NCBI GenBank assembly: GCA_963971535.1
Contig: OZ020601.1
Coordinates: 19,675,278 to 19,739,277, forward strand
Direction of reading: 5' to 3'
Length of the DNA: 64,000 nt
Source: Notolepis coatsorum
Lineage: Eukaryota; Chordata; Actinopteri; Aulopiformes; Paralepididae
Part shown: positions 10,027-59,707 of the stretch, piece by piece
Position numbering within the stretch: position 1 is the stretch's first letter
Layout: each line of letters starts with the position of its first letter
Notes under the pieces: model-generated
The model's database searches: none
The model's input: only the letters and a program-made list of their open reading frames with translations
What the model was told of the DNA's origin: nothing
Program-made: the position numbers and the translations under genes

Positions 10027-10723
10027 ATGACAACGGAGAAAGAGTTCTTCGCGGGTAATCATGTTATTCTAACGATCAAACGCGCTGTGCGTAAATTGTA
10101 TGCAATTTATATGTCTGAAGTGTGTTGCACGCAGCACACAGCGCCACGTATGCACGACACGTATAACATCGCGCTTACTTTTTGTTTTATTATGCATTCC
10201 ATTCTTGCAATCAGCTTTATGATTCTCATTCCATTGTATGTTGTCAGTCACTCTTAAACTGTGTAAACTGTAATTTCCTCCGCGCAACTCCTAAGTGTGT
10301 ATTGGTTCATTGAATATCGTAATCTACTGCAAAAACTTATTCCTGCAGGTATATCAAAGATACCATATGTGCCCAACGCTGGAACACGAGATGTCATGTG
10401 CTTCAAACATTACAGTGCAGGGGAGGTAGGTGTGACTGGACACACGCGCACATTTGAATGATATATTTATGTCCACATAAATACAAGTATGTCAAGGACA
10501 TGAACACACTAATAATGCAATCAGATATTGAGAGATACAAACATGAAAATAACAGGAGCAGGTGAAACTATCTCTCTGAATGAATGAATGAAAACTTTAT
10601 TTAACAGATTGCAGAATGGGTACAATACAGTACGGCTCAATACACACAATTGTTAAGGGGATGCAGACCAGAGAAAGACGTTTGTCTTGTTTACATCAGG
10701 GTCCCCCCCCCTCTCTCTTACTG

Positions 10724-10778
<55 letters not shown>

Positions 10779-13700
10779 AAGATACGCACTTTAAGTGTGA
10801 TTCTGTTACAGTAGAACCGGTGGTTCTCGATCTGTTTCATCAAGGACCTCGAGTCCTTGAGTCCTCGACATTGATATGAGTCCCGTTATTGAAAATAGGC
10901 CGTTATTGAAAATAAGAACTTGTTCTTACAAGATACACTACGCGACCAAGGTACCCATGTACATGTCAAAATACTTCCCAAAGGTCAGTGAATACCACGA
11001 TCACAACACCAGAGGGAGCTCCACAAATCATGTTAAACCCAGATTTGGCTCAAACAAGGGACTAAACACGTTTCGCAATTATGCCACATCAATGTGGAAC
11101 GCCCTACCCAAAGCTGTAAAGGAATGTGAATCACTACCCACTTTCAAAAACACTCTCAAAGAACACCTACGGGAGACTGCAATTCGAAACTGGCCCCTAC
11201 AAATGTCCTAACCCAGTTGTACAGTAAATGACCAAGTATGGCTTTGTCAGTATTCCAATGTACAGTGTACAGTGTGTGTCCCCCTACCCAACCCCCCCCC
11301 CCCCCCCACCTCCAATGTACAGCCCCCACCCACCCATCCAACCCCACCCCACCCACCCAACCTCCCCCAATGTACAGTTTCTACGTCAAATGTATATACA
11401 CTCTTTTTCTGGACACTTTTTGTATCACAAACAGTACTGTATTTGCAAATCTGATATGTCATAAATGTATAGATGTAGCAGTACTGTCATATGTTATGAT
11501 GAATTGAAAATGGGGGACCCTGATGTAAACAAGATAAAAGTCTTTCTCTGGTCTGCATCCCCTTAACAATTGTATGTATTGAGCTGTACTGTACTGTACC
11601 CATTCTGCAATCTGTTAATAAACTTTTCAATCAATCAATCAATCAAAACGAACCTGCCTATTCAAATAAAGGTTTGATGATGATTGATATTATGAGATTT
11701 TGTCCAGATAATAAGATAAGTCCATAATTCTGCAAGTGAAAGTGATCAGAATAGTCATTTTTATTCTCACATAGACCTGTTTTTCTGTGGACGGCCTGGA
11801 ACTGATGTAGCCAATTACTTAAACATTTTCTTCACAAACATAGCCACAACACTGGTAAACAAACTACCCTCCCACTCAGGGCATTATGGGGTAGAACACA
11901 TAGTAGCATACTACAAGAACCTTGGGGTCCACAAAGACGACTTCAAACTGGAAATGGTAACAACAGATGAGGTACTCAAAATACTGAGCGCCCTCCAACC
12001 GAACAAGGCCACTGGCCATGACAACATCCCCTCCAAATTCCTCAGAGACTCAGCAGCCGCCATCACCCCAGTCATCACACACATAATAAACCTCTCCATA
12101 AAACAGGGACACGTCCCCAAGGACTTCAAAATTGTGAGAGTAACACCCCTGCACAAAAAGGGCAGTAAATTAGACCCAGGCAACTACCGCCCTGTTTCTA
12201 TCCTTACCTCCATCTCGAAAGTCATGGAAAAAATAGTATACGAACAGGTCGAAAAGTACCTTGCGGAAAAAAATCTAATCTACGAATTCCAATCTGGCTT
12301 CAGAACATCCCACTCCACTGACACATGCCTTCTCTATTTAAATGACCACATCAAACAAGAGGTGGATGCAGGCAAATACTGCGGCATGGTCATGCTGGAC
12401 CTACAAAAGGCCTTCGACACTGTCAATCACACCATTCTGATTGACAAGCTAAAAGCAATTGGTTTTGATAGTCTATCAGTGAGCTGGATGCAATCCTACC
12501 TGGAGGGGAGAGAACAGATGGTGGAGGTAAACGGTACCCTATCCCCCCCCCCCTCACAGTGAGCTGTGGTGTTCCACAAGGAAGCATACTAGGACCGCTA
12601 CTGTTCCTAATTTATGCAAATGCCATGTCGTCAGCTTGTGACTGCAACTTGTTCCTGTTTGCGGACGACTCAGCCCTGCTGGTCTCTGACAAGAACAAGT
12701 TACAGGTTGAAAAAACCCTCAGCTCGGAACTAGGCAAAATCTGCATATGGCTCGCTGATAACAAACTATCATTACACATGGGCAAAACAGAGTCCATTCT
12801 CTTCGGTTCAAATAACAAACTCAGCAAGACCGACGGCTTCTCAGTTACAGTGGGTGACAATATTGTCACAAGGAAAGAAGAAATTACCTACCTGGGTTCC
12901 ATCCTAGAGGCAAATCTTTCCTGTGACAAAATGGCATCCAATGTAATAAAAAAAGTCAACCAACGAACTCGATTCTTGTACCGGATCTCCTCTCTGGTAA
13001 ACAAGAATACCCTGAAGACTCTGGCAGGAGCACTCATTCAAGGGTACTACGACTATGCTTGCACCTCATGGTACCAAAGCACCTCAAAGGCGCTAAAAAC
13101 AAAATTACAAACATCTCAAAACAATCTGGTCAGACTACTGCTTGACCTTACTAGAACCCACCTCACCCCTGCCCACTTTGACAACCTATGATGGCTTAGA
13201 GTAGACGACAGAGTACAGCAACTTGCAATGGGCCTGGTCTACAAGATACACTACACGACCAAGGTACATGTCAAAATACTTCCCAAAGGTCAGTGAATAC
13301 CACGATCACAACACCAGAGGGAGCTCCACAAATCATGTTAAACCCAGATTCGGCTCAAACAAGGGACTAAACACGTTTCGCAATTATGCCACATCAATGT
13401 GGAACGCCCTACCCAAAGCTGTAAAGGAATGTGAATCACTACCCACTTTCAAAACCAAAGAACACCTACGGGAGACTGCAATTCGAAACTGGCCCCTGTA
13501 AATGTCCTAACCCAACCCCCTCCAATGTACAGTAAATGACCAAGTATGGGGTCAATATTCCAACGTACAGTTTTGCTTGTACAGTTGTACAGTCTGCAAT
13601 CTGTTAATAAAGTTTTCAATCAATCAATCAATCAATCAAACTGGTCCCCAGACCCCTGGTTGAGAACCACTGTAGTAGAAGACTGTTTTGAATTAGGGAT

Positions 13701-14744
13701 GTTCGATATTGGCTTTTTTACCGATATCCGATATACGGATATTGTGTCCAACTCTTAATTTCCGATACCGATATCAACCGATACCGATATATGCAGGGTC
13801 CCCTTAATTTCAGGTAATTAACATTACATATCTCTTGTCGTGGAATTAACACAACATTATGCATACTTGTCACAATAAATAAAATAAGAATGTGCTTGCC
13901 TGGGTAAATACAGGTTAAATAAATGTAAAAAAAAAAATATATATATATACCGATAATTTCCGATATTACATTTTAATGTCAATAGCGTACGATAATATCG
14001 GACATCCCTATTTTGAATCCATATTTCTCGGACGGATGAATGGGCTTTTTATAGTGTTTTTGCAGTATATGGTGTACACTGTGTTTTTGCAGTATATGGT
14101 GGACACTGTTTTGCAGTATATGGTGTACACTGTGTTTTTGCAGTATATGGTGGACACTGTTTTGCAGTATATGGTGGACACTGTTTTGCAGTATATGGTG
14201 GACACTGTGTTTTTGCAGTATATCGTGTACACTGTGTTTTTGCAGTATATGGTGGACACTGTTTTGCAGTATATGGTGGACACTGTGTTTTTGCAGTATA
14301 TGGTGTACACTGTGTTTTTGCAGTATATGGTGTACACTGTGTTTTTGCAGTATATGGTGGACACTGTTTTGCAGTATATCGTGTACACTGTGTGTTTTTG
14401 CAGTATATGGTGTACACTGTGTTTTTGCAGTATATGGTGTACACTGTGTTTTTGCAGTATATGGTGGACACTGTTTTGCAGTATATGGTGGACACTGTTT
14501 TGCAGTATATGGTGGACACTGTTTTGCAGTATATGGTGGACACTGTTTTGCAGTATATGGTGGACACTGTTTTGCAGTATATGGTGTACACTGTGTTTTT
14601 GCAGTATATGGTGGACACTGTTTTGCAGTATATGGTGGACACTGTGCTCCCCCACAGGTGCTGATGGGTAGAAAGATGGAGGACTGGTTGAGGTTTTCAG
14701 TCTGTTACTGGCACACCTTCTGTGGAACTGGTAATACACACACG

Positions 14745-14831
<87 letters not shown>

Positions 14832-14981
14832 CACAAACCTTATTCTTTGATGATGTAATTTGTATTTGCTTTATCTCCCCCAAAAGTAGACGGTTAAAGT
14901 TCAAGTTTCTCTCCTTCACGTTGACCTGCTGTCTGTATCTGTTTCTCTCTCTCTCCTTCATGTTGACCTGCTGTCTGTATC

Positions 14982-15025
<44 letters not shown>

Positions 15026-18000
15026 TCATGTCTGACCTGCTGTCCTTTATCTGTTTCTCTCCCCTTCATGTCTGACTCAGGCGCCGACCCATTCGGTTTC
15101 CCAACTCTCCACAGACCGTGGAATGAAGGAACTCCCATGGAGTCGGCGAAGATGAGACTCCATGCTGCTTTTGAGTTCTTCACCAAGCTCGGGGTGAGTG
15201 AGTGAGTTCTTCACCAAGCTCGGGGGGAGTGAGTGAGTTCTTCACCAAGCTCGGGGGGAGTGAGTTCTTCACCAACTCGGGGGGAGTGAGTTCTTCACCA
15301 ACTCGGGGTGAGTGAGTGAGTTCTTCACCAAGCTCGGGGTGAGTGAGTGAGTTCTTCACCAAGCTCGGGGGGAGTGAGTGAGTTCTTCACCAAGCTCGGG
15401 GGGAGTGAGTGAGTTCTTCACCAAGCTCGGGGTGAGTGAGTTCTTCACCAAGCTCGGGGTGAGTGAGTGAGTTCTTCACCAAGCTCGGGGTGAGTGAGTG
15501 AGTTCTTCACCAAGCTCGGGGTGAGTGAGTTCTTCACCAAGCTCGGGGGGGAGTGAGTTCTTCACCAAGCTCGGGGGGAGTGAGTGAGTTCTTCACCAAG
15601 CTCGGGGGGAGTGAGTGAGTTCTTCACCAAGCTCGGGGTGAGTGAGTGAGTTCTTCACCAAGCTCGGGTGAGTGAGTGAGTTCTTCACCAAGCTCGGGGT
15701 GAGTGAGTTCTTCACCAAGCTCGGGTGAGTGAGTGAGTTCTTCACCAAGCTCGGGTGAGTGAGTGAGTTCTTCACCAAGCTCGGGGTGAGTGAGTTCTTC
15801 ACCAAGCTCGGGGGGAGTGAGTTCTTCACCAAGCTCGGGGGGAGTGAGTTCTTCACCAAGCTCGGGGGGGAGTGAGTGAGTTCTTCACCAAGCTCGGGGG
15901 GGAGTGAGTTCATCACCAAGCTCGGGGGGGAGTGAGTGAGTTCTTCACCAACTCGGGGTGAGTGAGTGAGTTCTTCACCAAGCTCGGGGTGAGTGAGTGA
16001 GTTCTTCACCAAGCTCGGGGGGAGTGAGTGAGTTCTTCACCAAGCTCGGGGGGGAGTGAGTGAGTTCTTCACCAAGCTCGGTGTGAGTGAGTGAGTTCTT
16101 CACCAAGCTCGGGGGGGAGTGAGTGAGTTCTTCACCAAGCTCGGGGGGGAGTGAGTTCTTCACCAAGCTCGGGGTGAGTGAGTGAGTTCTTCACCAAGCT
16201 CGGGGGGAGTGAGTGAGTTCTTCACCAAGCTCGGGGTGAGTGAGTGAGTTCTTCACCAAGCTCGGGGTGAGTGAGTGAGTTCTTCACCAAGCTCGGGGGG
16301 GAGTGAGTTCTTCACCAAGCTCGGGGGGGAGTGAGTGAGTTCTTCACCAAGCTCGGGGGGAGTGAGTTCTTCACCAAGCTCGGGGGGGAGTGAGTTCTTC
16401 ACCAAGCTCGGGGTGAGTGAGTGAGTTCTTCACCAAGCTCGGTGGGAGTGAGTTCTTCACCAAGCTCGGGGGGGAGTGAGTTCTTCACCAAGCTCGGGGG
16501 GGAGTGAGTTCTTCACCAAGCTCGGGGGGGATTGAGTTCTTCACCAAGCTCGGGGGGGAGTGAGTTCTTCACCAAGCTCGGGGGGGATTGAGTTCTTCAC
16601 CAAGCTCGGGGGGGATTGAGTTCTTCACCAAGCTCGGGGGGAGTGAGTTCTTCACCAAGCTTTGGGGAGTGAGTTCTTCACCAAGCTCGGGGGGAGTGAG
16701 TTCTTCACCAAGCTCGGGGGGAGTGAGTTCTTCACCAAGCTCGGGGGGAGTGAGTTCTTCACCAAGCTCGGGGGGAGTGAGTTCTTCACCAAGCTCTGGG
16801 GGAGTGAGTTCTTCACCAAGCTCTGGGGGAGTGAGTTCTTCACCAAGCTCGGGGGGGAGTGAGTTCTTCACCAAGCTCGGGGGGAGTGAGTGAGTTCTTC
16901 ACCAAGCTCGGGGGGGAGTGAGTTCTTCACCAAGCTCTGGGGGGAGTGAGTTCATCACCAAGCTCGGGGGGAGTGAGTGAGTTCTTCACCAAGCTCGGGG
17001 TGAGTGAGTGAGTTCTTCACCAAGCTTTGGGGAGTGAGTTCTTCACCAAGCTCGGGGGGAGTGAGTGAGTTCTTCACCAAGCTCGGGGGGAGTGAGTGAG
17101 TTCTTCACCAAGCTCGGGGGGAGTGAGTTCTTCACCAAGCTCGGGGGGAGTGAGTGAGTTCTTCACCAAGCTCGGGGGGAGTGAGTTCTTCACCAAGCTC
17201 GGGGGGAGTGAGTTCTTCACCAAGCTCGGGGGGAGTGAAGTCAGCACTCAGTGGTTGTGTCTCATCGGAATGAACACAGGTACCAAGAACCTGTGTGATT
17301 TGCTTTAACCTGAGGCCAGGAGAAGAGTAGCAGAGTGCTACTGGTTATTGAAACATAGTCACATCAGTGACAACTTCTCCTGATATTTTTTGTGTCAGAA
17401 TCCAAACACAATATTAATTTATAAAGGTTACATATATTTCTAACACTGCACAGCATGTTTTTTTTTTAAATAATGTGTCACAATAGAAAAACTGGATCCC
17501 TGCAGCGCTGTTTGAAACTAGAAATGATCTGTTGGTCTGTGATGCTCCTACCCTCCCACCACCTTTAGAAGATTGATTGATTTTCTTTTGACAATATATA
17601 AATAAATATGTGACAGAAGCACAGTCTGGAATACTGCCAAGGATAGACACAAAAAAGCTCAGAGATTATTTCCATTGTGGTCCTTGTAGGGGGGTGGGGG
17701 AATGAAGTATGCATCATACCTATACCATTGCACAGGTAAGATGTGACATTACTTTAACCTATACAGTTGTACAGGTAAGATGTGACATTACTCTAACCTA
17801 TATAGTTGTACAGGTAAGATGTGACATTACTTTAATCTATATAGTTGCACAGCTAAGATGTGACATTACTTTAACCTATATAGTTGTACAGGTAAGATGT
17901 GACATTACTCTAACCTATATAGTTGTACAGGTAAGATGTGACATTACTTTAATCTATATAGTTGCACAGCTAAGATGTGACATTACTTTAACCTATATAG

Positions 18001-21000
18001 TTGTACAGGTAAGATGTGACATTACTTTAATCTATATAGTTGCACAGCTAAGATGTGACATTACTTTAACCTATATAGTTGTACAGGTAAGATGTGACAT
18101 TACTCTAACCTATATAGTTGTACAGGTAAGATGTGACATTACTTTAACCTATATAGTTGTACAGGTAAGGTGTGACATTACTTTAATCTATATAGTTTCT
18201 GCTTCCCCCTTTACCATACAAAGACACATCTTTACCTCTTCCTGCTTCCCCCTTTACCATACAAAGACACATCTTTACCTCTTCCTGCTTCCCCCTTTAC
18301 CATACAAAGACACATCTTTACCTCTTCCTGCTTCCCCCTTTACCATACAAAGACACATCTTTACCTCTTCCTGCTTCCCCCTTTACCATACAAAGACACA
18401 TCTTTACCTCTTCCTGCTTCCCCCTTTACCATACAAAGACACATCTTTACCTCTTCCTGCTTCCCCCTTTACCATACAAAGACACATCTTTACCTCTTCC
18501 TGCTTCCCCCTTTACCATACAAAGACACATCTTTACCTCTTCCTGCTTCCCCCTTTACCATACAAAGACACATCTTTACCTCTTCCTGCTTCCCCCTTTA
18601 CCATACAAAGACACATCTTTACCTCTTCCTGCTTCCCCCTTTACCATACAAAGACACATATTTACCTCTTCATGCTTCCCCCTTTACCATACAAAGACAC
18701 ATCTTTACCTCTTCCTGCTTCCCCCTTTACCATACAAAGACACATATTTACCTCTTCATGCTTCCCCGTTTACCATACAAAGAAACATCTTCTAAGCTAC
18801 TGCAATGCTGGTTCGCTTTGTTTCAATCGTTTAATTTTTGGATTTGTGTCAAGAACAGAAATGTCAAGCATTTGTAATGATTGTAGGGCTAATCGTTTCT
18901 TCCCAAATCTACACAGGCAGCTTTTAAGCAGCATAATGTTGATTTAATCAGTTGTTTTGATAATTTCTTTAATTTAAAAAAAATATATTTTTACTTCTGC
19001 TTGTGGCTTATTGACGTCTCCTTGTCTCTACAGGTGAGGTATTACACGTTTCACGATAGGTAAGTGACTCTATTTAAAGGTTTTACCACTGACTTGAGAT
19101 CTGTTTACTTACTGTACACGTGGACATTAAGTGTAGTGTGTACTACCCTAGTTACATACTGGTAACACTCCTAACTGAGAACGTTTGAATACAGGACCGT
19201 GTGAATACTATTATATTCCCACCACAGTCAGGACAGCTGAAACCCTCAGTCAGGACAGCTGAAACCACCACAGTCAGGACAGCTGAAACCACCACAGTCA
19301 GGACAGCTGAAACCACCACAGTCAGGACAGAAGAAACCACCACAGTCAGGACAGCTGAAACCATCACAGTCAGGACAGCTGAAACCACCACAGTCAGGAC
19401 AGCTGAAACCACCACAGTCAGGACAGAAGAAACCACCACAGTCAGGACAGCTGAAACCCTCACAGTCAGGACAGCTGAAACCCTCACAGTCAGGACAGCT
19501 GAAACCCTCAGTCAGGACAGCTGAAACCCTCACAGTCAGGACAGCTGAAACCACCACAGTCAGGACAGCTGAAACCACCACAGTCAGGACAGCTGAAACC
19601 CTCACAGTCAGGACAGCTGAAACCACCACAGTCAGGACAGCTGAAACCATCAGTCAGGACAGCTGAAACCACCACAGTCAGGACAGCTGATACCACCACA
19701 GTCAGGACAGCTGAAACCACCACAGTCAGGACAGCTGAAACCCTCACAGTCAGGACAGCTGAAACCACCACAGTCAGGACAGCTGAAACCATCAGTCAGG
19801 ACAGCTGAAACCACCACAGTCAGGACAGCTGATACCACCACAGTCAGGACAGCTGAAACCACCACAGTCAGGACAGCTGAAACCACCACAGTCAGGACAG
19901 TTGAAACCACCACAGTCAGGACAGCTGAAACCATCAGTCAGGACAGCTGGAACCACCACAGTCAGGACAGCTGAAACCACCACAGTCAGGACAGCTGAAA
20001 CCATCAGTCAGGACAGCTGGAACCACCACAGTCAGGACAGCTGAAACCACCACAGTCAGGACAGCTGAAACCACCACAGTCAGGACAGCTGAAACCATCA
20101 GTCAGGACAGCTGAAACCATCACAGTCAGGACAGCTGATACCACCACAGTCAGGAGGACAGCTGAAACCACCACAGTCAGGACAGCTGAAACCACCACAG
20201 TCAGGAGGACAGCTGAAACCACCACAGTCAGGACAGCTGAAACCACCACAGTCAGGAGGACAGCTGAAACCACCACAGTCAGGACAGCTGAAACCATCAG
20301 TCAGGACAGCTGGAACCACCACAGTCAGGACAGCTGAAACCCTTACAGTCAGGACAACTGAAACCCTTATAGCCAGGACAACTGACTGTGGTTGACACCC
20401 ACACTTGAGCAAAGCAAACCATGGCTGCCATACAGTACCCTGGGTTCTTTAACCTCTTAACATGCCCTTGCACGAAAGTCACGGCATTTTGCGAGTGTCT
20501 AACGGCTTGGGCTGCATCTTTCGCAGAACATATAAATGACCGTTCGAAAGATCTATTTGTTGCCGTTCGAACGCCACCTCACTCGACCAAATCCTTTCCT
20601 CGGTTCTCGAGTTACATTACGATATGTCTATGGCGAGCGTCTTTTTACGTGCTGCGCGTCAGATGACCACCCTGGACTCCAGATGCTCCAGAACTGCCAG
20701 TCATCCGCTGATGGCGAAAATGATTGATCAGCGTTGTAGCCAATGAGTGTACCATTCCAACGATACCCCACGTGGTAGAGATCTAGGTGAAAGTTGACGA
20801 GCGAAAACCAAAAGTGAATCACACTTCAGAATGAACGGCCGTGGATGAGGAAATGGATTTTGGATTGTGTTGCCGATTAAACTCTGACGTCTCTCAAGGC
20901 CCATTTCTGAACAGACTTTAATAACATGTGGACTTGTACTACATAAGACTTCAGGCTATGGAACCGCAGTGTTTTCCAGCTTATATCTCTATACTGGAAT

Positions 21001-24000
21001 ATTGGAATATGGAATCTTGCAACCACTACAGAAAAAGTACACAAGTTCAACTCAAGTTCAGACATCTGTTACTCTATTTCATTAGCACTAAAAGTGATTT
21101 TCCTTTTTTGCATTAGTAACTTCAGAATGTTATCTTTCAAAAGAGACCAGGCTCATACATGTGCTATACGTATAAAGCTAAGCTTTGCAAAGAAAGTATG
21201 CAGTCCTCAAGTTCAAGTAAAAAAAATTAAATGGCCACTTTTCTGGGTGCTTGTTAAGAAGTTAACGACCGCATTGAGTCGGGACTCCGGTTTAACGGCA
21301 CTCAGAAATGTACTGTGTCCCTGTCACCATAGCAGGAGCATTGTTACAGCAAAGTCCAAGGACATATCGCAACCTTCCGATCATGTGGCCAGAGCCCCAC
21401 CCATGTCACCACGCTGCTGGACTAATTGTAGCCTAGATAGATAACTTGGATAACTTCACCCTCAGGGCCTCGAATCAGGCCTCAAACTATCTCTTTTATT
21501 ATTGATGATTATAAATGATCATTAGCCTAATGGATGTTGTACCGTGTTGCTCTCAGGGACATGGCTCCAGAAGGCTCCAGTCTGGAGGAGTCCAACAGGA
21601 ACCTGGATGAGATGACAGACCTGGCTCTCCAGCTGCAGACCCACACTGGTGTGAAAGTTCTGTGGGTGACCTGCAACCTGTTCGCCCATCCAAGGTCAGT
21701 GGTCTGTCTAGAGTAGAACCACTGTAGCATAATGTCATCACATGTGTTCTATCTGTATATACAGTCATCACATGTGTTCTATCTGTATATACAGTCATCG
21801 CATGTGTTCTATCTGTATATATGGTCATCACATGTGTTCTATCTGTATATACAGTCATCACATGTGTTCTATCTGTATATACAGTCATCGCATGTGTTCT
21901 ATCTGTATATATGGTCATCACATGTGTTCTATCTGTATATACAGTCATCATGCTACTCATGACAGGTACATTGTTACACATGACAGGTACATTGTTACAC
22001 ATGACAGGTACATTGTTACACATGCCAGGTACATTGTTACTTATGACAGGTACATTGTTACTTATGACTAGGGATGCTCGATATTGGCTTTTTTACCGAT
22101 ACCGATATACCGATATTGTCCAACTCTTAATTTACCGATATATGCAGGGTTTCCCCCCAAAAAAATTGAATAATTTCAAACATTATATATCTCTTGTTGT
22201 GGAATTAACACAACATTATGCATACTTTTGACAATAAATAAAATCAGAATTTGTTCTTACTTGCTTGCCTGGGTAAATAAAGGCTATAGAAATGTAAAAA
22301 AAATTAAAACCGATACCGATATTTTCCGATATTACATTTTAATGCCGATATCGGCCGATAATATCGGTAGGCCGATAATATCGGACATCCCTACTTATGA
22401 CTGTTACTTATGACAGGTACATTGTTACTTATGACAGGTACATTGTTACACATGACAGGTACATTGTTACACATGACAGGTACATTGTTACTTATGACAG
22501 GTACATTGTTACTTATGACAGGTACATTGTTACACATGACAGGTACATTGTTACACATGACAGGTACATTGTTACTTATGACAGGTACATTGTTACTTAT
22601 GACGGGTGCATTGCTACTTATGACAGGTGCATTGTTACTTATGACAGGTACATTGTTACTTATGACAGGTACATTGTTACTTATGACAGGTGCATTGTTA
22701 CTTATGACAGGTACATTGTTACTTATGACAGGTACATTGTTACTTATGACAGGTGCATTGTTACTTATGACTGTTACTTATGACAGGTACATTGTTACTT
22801 ATGACAGGTACATTGTTACTTATGACAGGTGCATTGTTACTTATGACTGTTACTTATGACAGGTACATTGTTACTTATGACAGGTACATTGTTACTTATG
22901 ACAGGTACATTGTTACTTATGACAGGTACATTGTTACTTATGACTGTTACTTATGACAGGTACATTGTTACTTATGACAGGTACATTGTTACTTATGACT
23001 GTTACTTATGACAGGTACATTGTTACTTATGACAGGTACACTGTTACTTATGACAGGTACATTGTTACTTATGACAGGTACATTGTTACTTATGACAGGT
23101 ACATTGTTACTTATGACAGGTACATTGTTACTTATGACTGTTACTTATGACAGGTACATTGTTACTTATGACAGGTACATTGTTACTTATGACAGGTACA
23201 TTGTTACTTATGACAGGTACATTGTTACTTATGACAGGTACATTGTTACTTATGACAGGTACATTGTTACTTATGACAGGTACATGAACGGAGCAGCCAC
23301 TAACCCTGACTGTCATGTTCTGGCCTACGCTGGGGCTCAGTTGAAGAAAGGACTGGATGTTGCGAAGAAAGGACTGGATGTTGCCAAGAAGCTTGGAGCA
23401 GAGAACTTTGGTACGAGAGAGAGTTACAGTAGTGTCTCCACATAAAATATCAACTTGAGTAACTTTTTTGATAAAATAAGATGAGACAAGACATTCCTTT
23501 ATTCATCCCCTTTGGGAAATTCAGGCATCCTAGCAGCACGGGGCAGGGGGAGGGGAGGGGGGGGGGGTAATAGTAGAAAGGTATGGGCAGGGTAATAGTA
23601 GAAAGACATAAATATAGGAAATTAAATTAAATCTGAATATAGAAATATGAGGAAAATAAACAGTGTAAACAATATAATTAAATCTATCTATAAACAAAGG
23701 TGCATATGAGGGTCTGTATGCCCTATCGGTTATAATATACGTTACAATATATGTAGGCAATAATAAATAAAAAAATGTTATCTGTTTTCTGTCTTTTAGT
23801 TTTCTGGGGCGGCAGGGAGGGCTTCCTCTCTATACACAACACTGATGTTGCTGCTGAACTCAAACACATGGCCAACTTCTTCAAAATGGCTGTCAGTAAG
23901 TACAGAGTGTGAGCCTCATCTCTGGCTGTCAGTAAGTACCGAGTGTGAGCCTCATCTCTGGCTGTCAGTAAGTACCGAGTGTGAGCCTCATCTCTGGCTG

Positions 24001-27000
24001 TCAGTAAGTAAGAGTGTGAGCCTCATCTCTGGTGTATTTCTGTCTTGACTATGTTGTCAAATTAAAGTCAGCAAGCTTTTGTGTACGAAGACGGTGTCTG
24101 TAGTGGAGGATAACTTCAATGTGCTATACATAACATTCAGCCACTAGATGTCGCACTAGAGCACCAGCATGTAATTTATCCAATCAGGTGCATTCCACTT
24201 GGGGAAATGGGAAGTAGGGAGGGGATACATTCCTGCAACATATAAACAACTTTTTTTTTGACCCACCACATTTTTTTAAATGATAAATATCTTAATCAAA
24301 TGTCTTTTTTGGGGGGAAAGCAATACTTTTTTTTATGGAGGTAGAAGTAGATAGTTTTCTAATCCAATAGGCTGGTCTTCTGCACCCCTAGCCCTCTGTC
24401 CTACGTACCAATGATGTTGTTGATCCATACTTCTTTCTCAGCACAATCAATGCTGTTCTTCATACTGGATACCCACAGTCGGTGATGTACCTGAACGTTC
24501 ATATTTTGGGGCGAACGTGAACTGAATGTACTGTATTTCCGCTAGATGAACGTAATTGTGAACGCGTTCATTCTCTGCGCTCTATCACAGTATAACTTAG
24601 TTCAAAAGTGTGCCAGATTTGGGACGGGCGCACACACACACACACCGAAAGGTTTCGGTGTGTGTGTGTTGCGCGCGGAGAGAGAGAGAGTCGTGCAGAG
24701 AGAGTCGTGCAGGCCGCACCTTCAAGGCAATGATAGGGGAAACACTGATAAATAATCACAGTGTGATGGAAATGCCAGTATTCTGATTGCTGCTGATTGT
24801 TCGGTGAGGGGAAGTTACTCTGGTCAAAACTGTCGAAAAACTTGTTCAACTCGTTTGCCTGCTCCATAAATGCAAAAATGTTCTCTTGTTTGCAGAGTAC
24901 AAAGAGAAGATAGGACTGAAGTGCCAGTTTCTCATTGAGCCGAAACCTAAAGAGCCTTGTAAACACCAGTATGACTACGGTAAGCAGTCTCATACCAGTA
25001 TCAAACACCAGTATGACTACGGTAAGCTGTCTCATACCAGTATCAAACACCAGTATGACTACGGTAAGCTGTCTCATACCAGTATCAAACACCAGTATGA
25101 TTACGGTAAGCTGTCTCATACCAGTATCAAATACCAGTGTGTCTCCAGTGTGTCTCCAGTGTGTATCCAGTGTCTCCAGTGTGTCTCCAGTGTGTCTCCA
25201 GTGTGTATCCAGTGTGTCTCCAGTGTGTCTCCAGTGTGTCTCCAGTGTGTCTCCAGTGTGTCTCCAGTGTGTCTCCAGTGTGTATCTAGTGTGTCTCCAG
25301 TGTGTCTCCAGTGTGTCTCCAGTGTGTCTCCAGTGTGTATCCAGTGTGTCTCCAGTGTGTATCTAGTGTGTATCTAGTGTGTCTCCAGTGTGTCTCCAGT
25401 GTGTCTCCAGTGTGTGTCCAGTGTGTCTCCAGTGTGTCTCCAGTGTGTCTCCAGTGTGTCTCCAGTGTGTCTCCAGTGTGTTCTCCAGTGTGTCTCCAGT
25501 GTGTCTCCAGTGTGTCTCCAGTGTGTCTCCAGTGTGTTCTCCAGTGTGTCTCCAGTGTGTCTCCAGTGTGTCTCCAGTGTGTCTCCAGTGTGTCTCCAGT
25601 GTGTTCTCCAGTGTGTCTCCAGTGTGTCTCCAGTGTGTTCTCCAGTGTGTCTCCAGTGTGTCTCCAGTGTGTCTCCAGTGTGTTCTCCAGTGTGTCTCCA
25701 GTGTGTCTCCAGTGTGTCTCCAGTGTGTTCTCCAGTGTGTCTCCAGTGTGTGTATATATACTTAGGTGCCTCTCTCTTCCAGATGCCATGAGTGTAATAG
25801 GTTTCCTGAAGCAGTATGGTCTGGACAGTCACTTTAAGCTGAACATCGAGCCCAACCACACCACGTTAGCGGGACACTCCTACGAACATGACGTCGTCAT
25901 GGCCGCTGCGTAAGACGTGATTATTTGACATCATGTAGGGGTGTTCTCGGTACAGAAAGGAAGATTTTTTAAAGAAATCTGTCCGTTCAATATGGAATAT
26001 GTATAATAATATACATTATATATTTATGTATCACAGTTGTGCTGATATTCACTGCACTCACTCTCGTGTGATATTGTACGTGATAAGTACGGTATGACTA
26101 CTGCTATTAGTAGTAGCACAAATTAATGGAAGCGATACGGACCAGTAGCCTAGCTTAACACTCTGTATCCGCTTCCATTAATTTGTGCACTGCTAAACTA
26201 GGCTAGCGTGCACAAATAGCTAGCGTGCAGCCGGATTGGCATCTTATCTAGTCTGTCTCTGGAGAAAACGGTAAACACATTTCCCATAATGTTGGGAGTG
26301 TTCCTTTAACATTAGTGTATCATTACACCCCTAACATGTTGGCATCATTAGATGGATGGCATTTACTGCACCCCAATGTTCACTATTACATTATCACTAC
26401 TGACTGCTTTCTGCCGGGCAGGTTTGGCATGCTGGGTTCAGTGGACTCCAATACAGGCTCTCCAGACCTGGGTTGGGATACAGACCAGTTCCCCATGGAC
26501 ACCAGGAACATCACCATGGTGATGAAGGTGAGGACAACCGATGGTTTTAGAGTGGTCATAGAATAATGGATTTCTTTTTTTATAACTTTCTTTATTGGAA
26601 GTTTTCAAAAAATTTAAAGTACAGATAATTATACAAATTATACATCTTCCTTCCCCCCCCCCCCCCATTTCCCGTTCCTATCCCCTAGCCCCTCCCCATC
26701 CCATCCACGGAGAGTGATAACAGACATATATATATATATATATAATACAACAACAACAAAACAACAACAAACAAAAAAAATAATGGATATTTAAAGAGGA
26801 ATGGCATTTTATTTAAAGCTGCACCGGGTAGTATTGAGAATAAAACGTACCTCTACAATAACTAGTTACATTACCTCTACAATAACTAGTTACATTACCT
26901 CTACAATAACTAGTTACATTACCTCTACAATAACTAGTTAAATTACCTCTACAATAACTAGCTACATTACCTCTACAATAACTAGTTACATTACCTCTAC

Positions 27001-30000
27001 AATAACTAGTTAAATTACCTCTACAATAACTAGTTACATTACCTCTACAATAACTAGTAACAAATGCTTGGATATTATATATATATATAATCTCGACACA
27101 AATTAAAAAAAAAATCACCCTTTGAAACAAAGTGAACCAACGTTGCTCTTAGAGGATGTTTCTCTGAAACAAAGTTAACCAATGTCATTCCCCTTCTCAG
27201 ACCATCATTGAACAAGGTGGTCTGCAGCCTGGAGGTCTGAACTTCGACGCCAAGGTACGTAGAGAGTCCACAGACCTGGAGGACCTGTTCATCGCTCACA
27301 TCGGAGCCATGGACGCCTTCGCCAGAGGACTCAGGAACGCCGTCCGCATGGCAGAAGAAGGAGTGATCTCTGGTATGGTGAAGGTACTGTATGCCTTTCA
27401 GGTTTCACGTTTATTTTATTGGTCAATGGTCATAATGTATGTATGTTAACACGAGGTCAACGGCACAATGAAACGTGTTGGACGAGAAAACAGGTCAGCT
27501 CAGCAGTAGGAGGACTAGACACATTAGGGCACTAGTCATATAAAGGTAGAATAAAGTAAAATAAAAAGTAAATAAGCATGGCATAACAGAGCAGCTGAAA
27601 GGAAGTATAGAAAGTCACGCCTCACTGCTGACATCGACACATATCACAACCTCTTGTTAACATTCTCCAAAACCATTACTAATGCCAAAGCTTCTTTCTT
27701 TCACCATAGGATCGAGGCCTCTGCCAAGAATCTTCGCAAACTGCATGCTACCATGTCCTCCCTCCTCACTCCCCCCCCACCCCCCCCTCCCTCATCTTTC
27801 TCTGCCGAAGACTTTGCGATCTTCTTTGAGGAAAAAGTGGAGAACATCCGCAGCTCCTTCTCCCAACCCCCACCCATTCCAAATGCTGAATCGAGAACCT
27901 CATCCTTCACTCTGTCATCTTTCTCTCCCATTACAGAAGCCGAGACCCTGACACTGGTAACGTCGAACCGTCCGACTACATGCCAGCTGGACCGGCTACC
28001 TTCCCCACTCCTCCAGTCCATAGCACCAGACATCCTCCCATTCCTAACTGCAACCATCAACTCCTCACTCAACTCGGGGGTGGTCCCCACCTCCCTAAAA
28101 CAAGCCAGAGTCACGCCCCTCATAAAAAAACCATCCCTGAACCCTACCGTCATAGGCAACTACCGTCCTGTCTCTCTTCTCTCCTTCCTTTCTAAAACAC
28201 TTGAACGTGCTGTATCCAACCAACTTACTGCTTATCTCTTACAGAATGACCTCCTAGACCCTAATCAGTCAGGCTTCAGGACTGGTCACTCCACAGAGAC
28301 AGCCCTCATTGCGGTCACAGAGGCACTTCACTTAGCAAAAGCGAAAGGCCTCTCCTCTGTCCTGATTCTCCTAGATCTATCTGCAGCCTTCGACACAGTC
28401 AACCACCAGATCCTCCTCGCGGCCCTCGCAGGAATGGGAGTGGCTGGCTCTGCGCTGACATGGTTGTCATCATACCTCAATGACCGCTCCTACCAAGTGT
28501 CATGGAGAGGGACCCTGTCGGCCACCCGCCCCCTGCGGACGGGTGTCCCCCAGGGCTCGGTTTTAGGACCCCTTCTCTTCTCCCTCTACACTAAATCACT
28601 GGGTAACATTATCACGTCTCATGGCTTCTCCTACCACTGTTATGCCGACGATACTCAACTCTTCCTCTCCTTCCCTCCCTCAGATATCCACGTCTCTGAG
28701 CGGATCTCGGCCTGTCTGTCCGACATCTCCGCCTGGATGACGACCAACCACCTCAAACTGAACCTAAGCAAAACAGAATTGCTCCACCTGCCGGCCAAAT
28801 CCTCCCCCCTGACCGACCTTTCCATCACAGTCGAGAATGCAGCTGTGACCGCGTCCCCGACCGCCAAGAACCTTGGTGTTGTCCTCGACGACCAGTTGAA
28901 CTTCTCTGCTCACATCGCAGCGACAACCAGAACCTGCCGATTCCTCCTGAGCAACGTCAGAAGGATACGCCCCTTCCTGACAAAAGAAGCCACCCAACTC
29001 CTCGTCCAATCAACAGTCATCTCCCGCCTCGACTACTGCAACGCACTGCTCGCTGGCCTCCCGGCCACTGCCACTAAGCCTCTTCAACTCATTCAGAACG
29101 CAGCGGCCCGCCTGATCTCAAACCTACCGAAGTCGGCCCATGTCACCCCACTTCTTAGGGACCTGCACTGGCTCCCCATTGCTGCACGAATCCGCTTCAA
29201 GGCCCTTGACCTAGCATACCGTGCGGCAAAGGGAACTGCTACCGCCTACCTCCGGTCAATGGTCTCTAACTACACACCCTCAAGACCCCTACGCTCTGCA
29301 TCTTCTGGCCGCCTCAGACCTACTCCTATCCAAGCTCCGGGAGGGTCATCAAAGAGAAGTCGCCTATTCTCAGTCCTTGCCCCACAATGGTGGAATGAAC
29401 TACCCACCCCAGTTAGGACAGCCGAAACACGTCCAATCTTTCGCCGTCGACTAAAGACTCACTTCTTCAACCATTATCTGAATTAAAAAAAAAAATAAAA
29501 ATAAAAATCTAACCCTAACTAACCATACTGTCATGCACTTGTCCTAATAAACTAACCTACACTGTAGCACTCAACACTTTGATGAACATTGTTACTCAGC
29601 TGATAGAGTTGTGCTCTTCCTGATGGCTTGTCGTACAGAACTTGTAAGTCGCTTTGGATAAAAGCGTCAGCTAAATGACTAAATGTAAATGTAAATGTAA
29701 ATGAATAAGATGTATAACTATGTACATAATATGTAAATTAGGATATGTGTATAAACAGTATTACACAGGTGGTATGAGATATGGGAGAATGAAATACATG
29801 GAATGTGACACTAATAATAATAATTATTATATTAAACTGTATTTGTATAGCACCTTTAATACAGAAATTGTAGCCCAAATGCTTCACAGCTGAGAAAATA
29901 GACATACAAATAATAATAATAAAAAAAATAGAAATGAGGAAATGAGCAAACTATATACAGTACATAATATGACAACGAGGATTTGTGTGTAAAAGTAGAA

Positions 30001-39798: not shown

Positions 39799-59707
<19,909 letters not shown>

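Follow-up and report, generated by a model that had tools for sequence, protein, structure and literature searches.

Within a 64,000-nt stretch of the Notolepis coatsorum genome (contig OZ020601.1, positions 19,675,278 to 19,739,277; hereafter the window), a xylose isomerase (XI) gene carries minisatellites that span 4 of its 26 splice junctions, namely three donors (exons 4, 8 and 9) and one acceptor (exon 7), the repeated unit in each case including the exon end together with the splice site. The original prediction had described these four arrays, and all four were found. Junction-spanning arrays also occur in unrelated genes of the same genome, at 5 of 165 junctions (3.0%, 95% interval 1.0-6.9%) in a sample picked blind to repeats, and one pair of recent paralogs contains the same junction with and without its array. 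The initial observation is thus right, and more general than a view restricted to one gene allowed. Most probably, the arrays go back to ordinary short tandem duplications that straddled junctions by chance and were kept where one intact splice site remained. The mechanism linked to the junction itself that had been put forward is not supported, be it by phase, by end points or by repeat content.

The joined exons of the XI gene (Table 1) encode an unbroken protein of 446 amino acids, and all 13 introns have GT/AG ends. The protein scored 631 bits against TIGR02630 (cutoff 533) and, in comparisons with bacterial enzymes of known structure, 499 bits over its full length against PDB entry 4xkm. 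When the outermost splice sites are used, its alignment to bacterial enzymes is gap-free at the four arrayed junctions. The gene is thus of bacterial type, is divided into 14 exons with its frame unbroken, and resides in a fish genome; no paper on a vertebrate XI gene was among the matches listed, i.e. the best 12 of 2,192 in the literature.

After merging of overlapping rows from Tandem Repeats Finder (TRF), and counting both parts of an array split by an insertion as one, the XI gene contains 16 arrays with a unit of at least 10 bp, one of which is purely exonic (exon 7) and 15 of which are not. Contrary to what had been claimed, the junction arrays do not begin exactly at splice sites: those of exons 4, 8 and 9 start 22, 9 and 19 nt inside the respective exons, and that of exon 7 ends 6 nt inside. 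Their units are arranged head-to-tail and measure 21-42 bp in XI (as called by TRF) and 23-64 bp in the kinase loci described below. All nine junction arrays from the two sources have the splice site within the unit, and at one end of each array the real junction forms the last unit. The XI array at the exon 4 donor consists of 71 units rather than the 75-80 copies given previously. Of these, 59 retain the exact 21-nt exon end, whereas the GGTGAGTGAG donor is kept in only 20 (17 among the first 36 units and 3 among the last 35) and is lacking in the other 51. The exon 4 unit had no match in IMG/VR contigs, as expected. Exon 7 had been credited with dozens of copies and exons 8 and 9 with four each, and these numbers stood: the exon 7 array has 41 GACAG/GT motifs (the slash marking the exon boundary), the final one being the real acceptor followed by 6 nt of the exon, and the exon 9 donor ACGGTAAGC is present in 4 of 4 copies.

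The sample of other genes comprised 80 of 136 Pfam kinase matches, with 250-300 bp of flanking sequence on each side, and 9 myosin loci out of 145 matches, of which 19 junctions were read by eye. The kinase matches left out mostly had in-frame stops, long open frames or were apparent duplicates; one locus (L085) was retained despite a stop in its match, and its 2-copy repeat within the exon was excluded from the counts. With a table of donor sequences and a simple score for acceptors, 146 of the 160 kinase exon ends could be called (76 acceptors and 70 donors); the donor of L107 was placed by hand and lines up with those of its paralogs L049 and L090. Because five groups of exons are more than 90% alike, the sample is not fully independent. 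The strict array filter (period of at least 15, not low complexity) was set after the rows of a loose pass (TRF period of at least 10) had been inspected, and it removed a weak acceptor array at L037 (14 bp, 1.9 copies). Arrays that looked like transposons were excluded by eye after their units had been viewed (five in one computation, six in the final one), and results are given both with and without them. All five spanning arrays were found in kinases, four at donors and one at an acceptor.

Two of these kinase loci, L056 and L058, have exons that encode an identical peptide and are recent paralogs. They are 97.9% identical over 292 bp that reach into the first unit of the L056 array, and 94.7% identical over 170 bp from its last unit on. 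In L058, a single TTACTACATGTCCCCG/gtgagttattgatccg segment is followed by TTTCCG; in L056, there are four near-identical 32-bp tandem copies and then the same intron. The simplest reading is that the L056 array would have started as a tandem duplication of 32 bp, reaching from 16 nt inside the exon to 16 nt inside the intron, that was later amplified. The ends of the 32-bp segment share 2 bp and carry no splice motif. Since the donor and the start of the intron are present in both paralogs, they were not created by the array. Among three further paralogous kinase exons (L049, L090 and L107), an acceptor array is present in L090 only and a donor array in L107 only.

Within the 3.42-Gb assembly, the contig is 93.7 Mb long and has the window at 19.7 Mb. 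Minisatellites make up 28% of the window, as compared with 12.4% in twenty 10-kb stretches of its contig (L009-L028). For comparison, total tandem repeat contents of 1.7-5.0% have been published for four fish and of 20.6% for Nothobranchius furzeri (PMC2688266). Judged against these values, the window is a minisatellite-rich part of a minisatellite-rich genome, with a load that is high yet not unheard of. Along the contig there is a regional gradient: all five stretches sampled in its first 20 Mb have a minisatellite share of 12-52%, and of the 15 stretches further along 14 have 1-10% and one has 30%.

How often junctions would be spanned by chance was calculated for the window by collapsing each array to one unit and placing it uniformly, purely exonic positions being excluded. 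For XI this predicts 0.73 junction-spanning arrays among the 15 non-exonic ones, and 4 were observed (P = 0.005); removal of transposon stretches recognised by eye raises the expectation to 1.15 (P = 0.023). The neighbouring gene, which we take to be squalene epoxidase (SQLE), served as an internal control; with both genes pooled, 4 of 24 arrays are spanning, against 1.1-1.6 expected (P = 0.023-0.068). These P values are flattering, and thus weak evidence, because XI was picked for its arrays.

Under the favoured reading, the founding step would be a tandem duplication of about 20-65 bp that straddles a splice junction, probably by slippage or template switching, in a genome where such duplications would be generated and amplified very frequently. 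Duplications lying wholly within an exon would usually be removed by selection. Those that straddle a junction most likely survive because a slip across the splice site does little harm. That is, at a donor the first copy would stay beside the exon with both the exon end and the donor preserved, and at an acceptor the last copy would stay intact. The array would subsequently grow as intron and be retained near-neutrally, while the mRNA would presumably use the exon-proximal site. The in-frame 21-bp duplication in coding exon 7 of the same gene, which amounts to a 7-aa insert relative to two aligned bacterial enzymes, is counted as support for duplication of the ordinary kind. Tolerance, which the original prediction had mentioned as an alternative, fits the recurrence of arrays at junctions of unrelated genes. 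An acceptor added upstream of the real one is encountered first by the splicing machinery, and tolerance therefore predicts that donors should be spanned more often than acceptors. The counts lie in this direction, with 7 of 105 donors and 2 of 106 acceptors when XI and SQLE are included (p = 0.10, not significant), and 4 of 82 donors and 1 of 83 acceptors in the unselected sample only (p = 0.21).

Several observations weigh against chance placement followed by tolerance. In the unselected sample, 5 of 22 arrays are spanning, against 2.61 expected under uniform founders (P = 0.11), and without the six transposon-like arrays the figure is 5 of 16 against 1.90 (P = 0.034). Relative to uniform placement, spanning arrays may therefore be over-represented two- to three-fold at most, a borderline excess; if real, it would mean, together with the 4 of 15 in XI, that tolerance alone is insufficient. 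With the loose filter, about 13 array sides fell within 50 bp of exon ends as compared with about 5 at 51-190 bp. Several of these arrays were pyrimidine tracts or 2-copy matches, which makes that crowding unreliable, and it was dropped as a candidate signal since the strict filter gave 6 within 50 bp and 7 at 51-190 bp. Furthermore, a pair with and without an array was found only once, with just 2 bp shared at the segment ends, and L058 may have lost copies instead of L056 having gained them, a loss that would need to be exact. The comparison with chance that had been proposed as a check thus gave a divided answer, in that recurrence at other junctions was borne out and the excess at junctions was borderline (1.9-2.6 expected, P = 0.034-0.11).

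That splice junctions, donors above all, are hot spots of tandem duplication, whether through R-loops, break repair coupled to transcription or slippage from one donor-like motif to another, would account for the 4 of 26 junctions in XI and for the 5 of 165 elsewhere; moreover, the GTGAGT of the exon 4 donor shares TGAGT with the exon 23 nt upstream, so that the donor itself could have supplied microhomology. We nevertheless regard it as unlikely. If arrays were nucleated by splice signals, their end points would be expected at a fixed offset from the junction, and the nine arrays show no preferred phase: the exonic share of the unit is 0.23, 0.25, 0.29, 0.45, 0.48, 0.50, 0.59, 0.71 and 0.92 (mean 0.49), not different from uniform (Kolmogorov-Smirnov p = 0.63, a test that with n = 9 excludes gross departures only). 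The L056/L058 segment is likewise a plain 32-bp duplication whose ends lack a splice motif. The array-free junctions of XI and SQLE (35 of 46) have fewer spanning direct repeats of 4-6 bp than the intron background, which suggests that, as measured here, a junction has no greater intrinsic tendency to slip, although exon composition may contribute; an intrinsic slippage bias from short direct repeats was rejected for this reason. No sign of GC skew is common to the four XI arrays (+0.28 for exon 4, +0.13 for exon 7, +0.12 for exon 8 and -0.22 for exon 9), hence there is no common R-loop signature, and the R-loop association that had been suggested was discarded. Nor was any spanning array found at the 20 junctions of SQLE, despite its nine intronic arrays, or at the 19 myosin junctions. 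Random points on the contig fall inside an array more often (134 of 1457) than junctions do (5 of 165), a rough comparison that is influenced by the length of the arrays and by the filter, is not like-for-like, and mainly shows how widespread arrays are. It is likewise doubtful that donors above all are duplication hot spots where a few per cent of junctions have by now become minisatellites, some of them with dozens of strong competing sites, although the donor and acceptor counts (which include the gene picked for its arrays) and the two- to three-fold excess in the unselected sample are compatible with it.

Selection in favour of the arrays, as spare splice sites or as in-frame peptides encoded by the units, appears very unlikely. 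Use of the three exon 9 decoy donors or of the last six exon 7 decoy acceptors would indeed add whole 14-aa or 7-aa units, respectively, without a stop. These are the only decoys that stay open, and a functional in-frame peptide was rejected on that account. All three exon 8 decoys would meet a stop near codon 233 and all five tested exon 4 decoys near codon 101, most exon 4 units lack the donor as described above, and the arrays differ between paralogs. Purging of nearby decoy donors was also considered and rejected, since the exon 4 array keeps donors near the exon and loses distant ones, the reverse of what is predicted. Among the least probable explanations is an assembly artefact, with repeats collapsed or inflated. 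Assembly of long arrays is difficult, and matches of large contigs recur in some small ones; however, the copies differ at many places, a transposon-like insertion with a target duplication sits inside the exon 7 array, and short arrays of about 2-4 copies as well as nine loci in six genes share the same design. Equally improbable is a purely geometric account, in which compact introns force arrays to lie near junctions. By our own reckoning, about 90 bp remain of intron 6 and likewise of intron 9 once the arrays and the inserted element are collapsed, intron 6 consisting of 40 bp, an array and an array with an insert, and intron 9 of two arrays and 31 bp. Geometry would account for nearness and not for spanning, and the permutation in the window already used collapsed lengths.

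Minisatellites that bear splice sites have precedents, e.g. in human IFI6. The human 6-16 minisatellite reportedly supplies several splice donors to one transcript, the gene being IFI6. The likeness lies in head-to-tail minisatellite units with a splice site, a terminal one being the real junction. For 6-16 it is transcripts that were studied, whereas the present arrays were identified in genome sequence and include acceptors; and 6-16 is one minisatellite, whereas here there are four arrays in one gene and five in unrelated kinase genes.

Human segmental duplications provide a further precedent, and the earlier statement that no such system had been described does not hold. According to the report on them, variable internal tandem repeats with units of ~30 bp are found at exon-intron boundaries and have recently expanded; they make novel introns in young paralogs, with 27 intron modifications and 162 alignments with boundary repeats (PMC2812944). 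Unit size and location are similar to those seen here. Unlike those novel introns, the intron of the L056/L058 pair exists without the array. A survey of human introns lists 792 that are embedded in tandem repeats and describes dual-specific splice sites in the tandem arrays of UBC (PMC10809524). Units of the XI exon 7 and intron 4 arrays resemble the latter in carrying AGGT, usable in principle as both donor and acceptor, at 43 and 21 per kb, respectively (0 per kb in the exon 4, 8 and 9 arrays). In UBC, a single repeat block encloses the intron, which measures a whole number of units, whereas each of the four XI junction arrays spans one end of its intron only. The Rogers model derives intron gain from tandem duplication of a segment containing AGGT (PMC4974935). 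As in our case, the tandemly duplicated stretch is short, contains a splice site and need not alter the protein; the difference is that at the one locus compared no new intron is formed, the donor and intron start being present without an array in L058. Among the matches listed in searches of the open-licence literature, there was no count of junction-spanning arrays against random positions.

The point of interest is the apparent frequency, about 3% of junctions. Should this figure be true, the genome would offer a natural laboratory for how the spliceosome chooses one site among many equal ones: the exon 4 array packs 20 retained donor contexts among its 71 units into 2 kb, and each of the five decoys tested there would lead to a stop. 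The L056/L058 pair displays the states with and without a junction array. Moreover, exon-end annotation in repeat-rich genomes can err.

Table 1. Features of the window (positions within the 64,000-nt stretch) and junction arrays of the kinase sample; slashes mark exon boundaries or splice points.
Feature	Position	Strand	Basis
Xylose isomerase gene, 14 coding exons, frame intact	10027..32340	+	Exons assembled from window
24/27-bp array 5' of exon 3, TTTTGCAG in its units; 11 bp separate its end from the acceptor, not spanning	14054..14646	+	TRF
Exon 4; final 22 nt are the start of the array	15081..15193	+	Exon model
Array at exon 4 donor, 71 units beginning with GAGTTC (26-32 bp; exon end followed by GTGAGT(GAGT))	15172..17233	+	TRF, motif count
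Intron 4 array, 39-bp unit with CAG/GTAAGA, away from coding junctions	17728..18197	+	TRF
Intron 6 array, 30-bp unit, begins 40 bp past exon 6 donor	21734..21950	+	TRF
Exon 7 acceptor array, 21-bp unit TGTTACTTATGACAG/GTACAT, split by insertion	21954..23285	+	TRF
Short element within exon 7 array, ends TAGGGATG...CATCCCTA, 8-bp target duplication CTTATGAC	22069..22393	.	Sequence inspection
In-frame 21-bp tandem duplication within coding exon 7	23343..23390	+	Tandem-repeat call, protein alignment
Array at exon 8 donor, 36-bp unit (9 nt exonic, 27 nt intronic) in 4 copies	23887..24032	+	TRF, exon model
Array at exon 9 donor, 42-bp unit (19 nt exonic, 23 nt intronic) in 4 copies	24961..25138	+	TRF, exon model
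11-bp array occupying almost all remaining intron 9, stops 31 bp before exon 10	25134..25751	+	TRF
Neighbouring gene, 11 exons, 9 arrays (internal control)	39799..59707	+	Exon model
L056 donor array, 32-bp unit (exon end of 16 nt followed by gtgagttattgatccg) in 4 copies			Kinase sample
L071 donor array, 6.9 copies of 39 bp, extends past fetched end			Kinase sample
L037 donor array, 2.1 copies of 64 bp			Kinase sample
L107 donor array, 11.4 copies of 23 bp, TCTCACTGGAGG/GTAGGGAACCG, extends past fetched end			Kinase sample
L090 acceptor array, ~9 units of 29 bp			Kinase sample

Two further repeats of the XI gene had been placed at splice sites. The array 5' of exon 3, thought to abut the acceptor, in fact stops short of it (Table 1). 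Where a repeat was said to end on the exon 4 acceptor, TRF detects a 42-bp repeat and a (TC)n tract, whose ends lie 83 and 57 bp, respectively, upstream of the acceptor, so that the claim failed as far as the called repeats go; it stood in part, since diverged copies of the repeat can be traced by eye up to the acceptor. In the intron 4 array, which has 12 copies, CAG/GTAAGA is present in most units, and the array resembles one of dual-specific or recursive splice sites. The short element inside the exon 7 array has a second copy, with TAGGGATG ends and an 8-bp target duplication, at about 13694-14010, and both are presumably hAT-like. As the element sits inside the array, the exon 7 array must be older than the insertion, which provides a relative date.

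The neighbouring gene has features of its own. Its exon 6 donor is GC (CAG/GCAAGA), the one GC donor of the gene, and 28 bp further on there is a perfect CTGT tract of 43 copies (50407-50778). With 147 copies of a 23-bp unit, the array at positions 56007-59388 in its last intron is the longest in the window.

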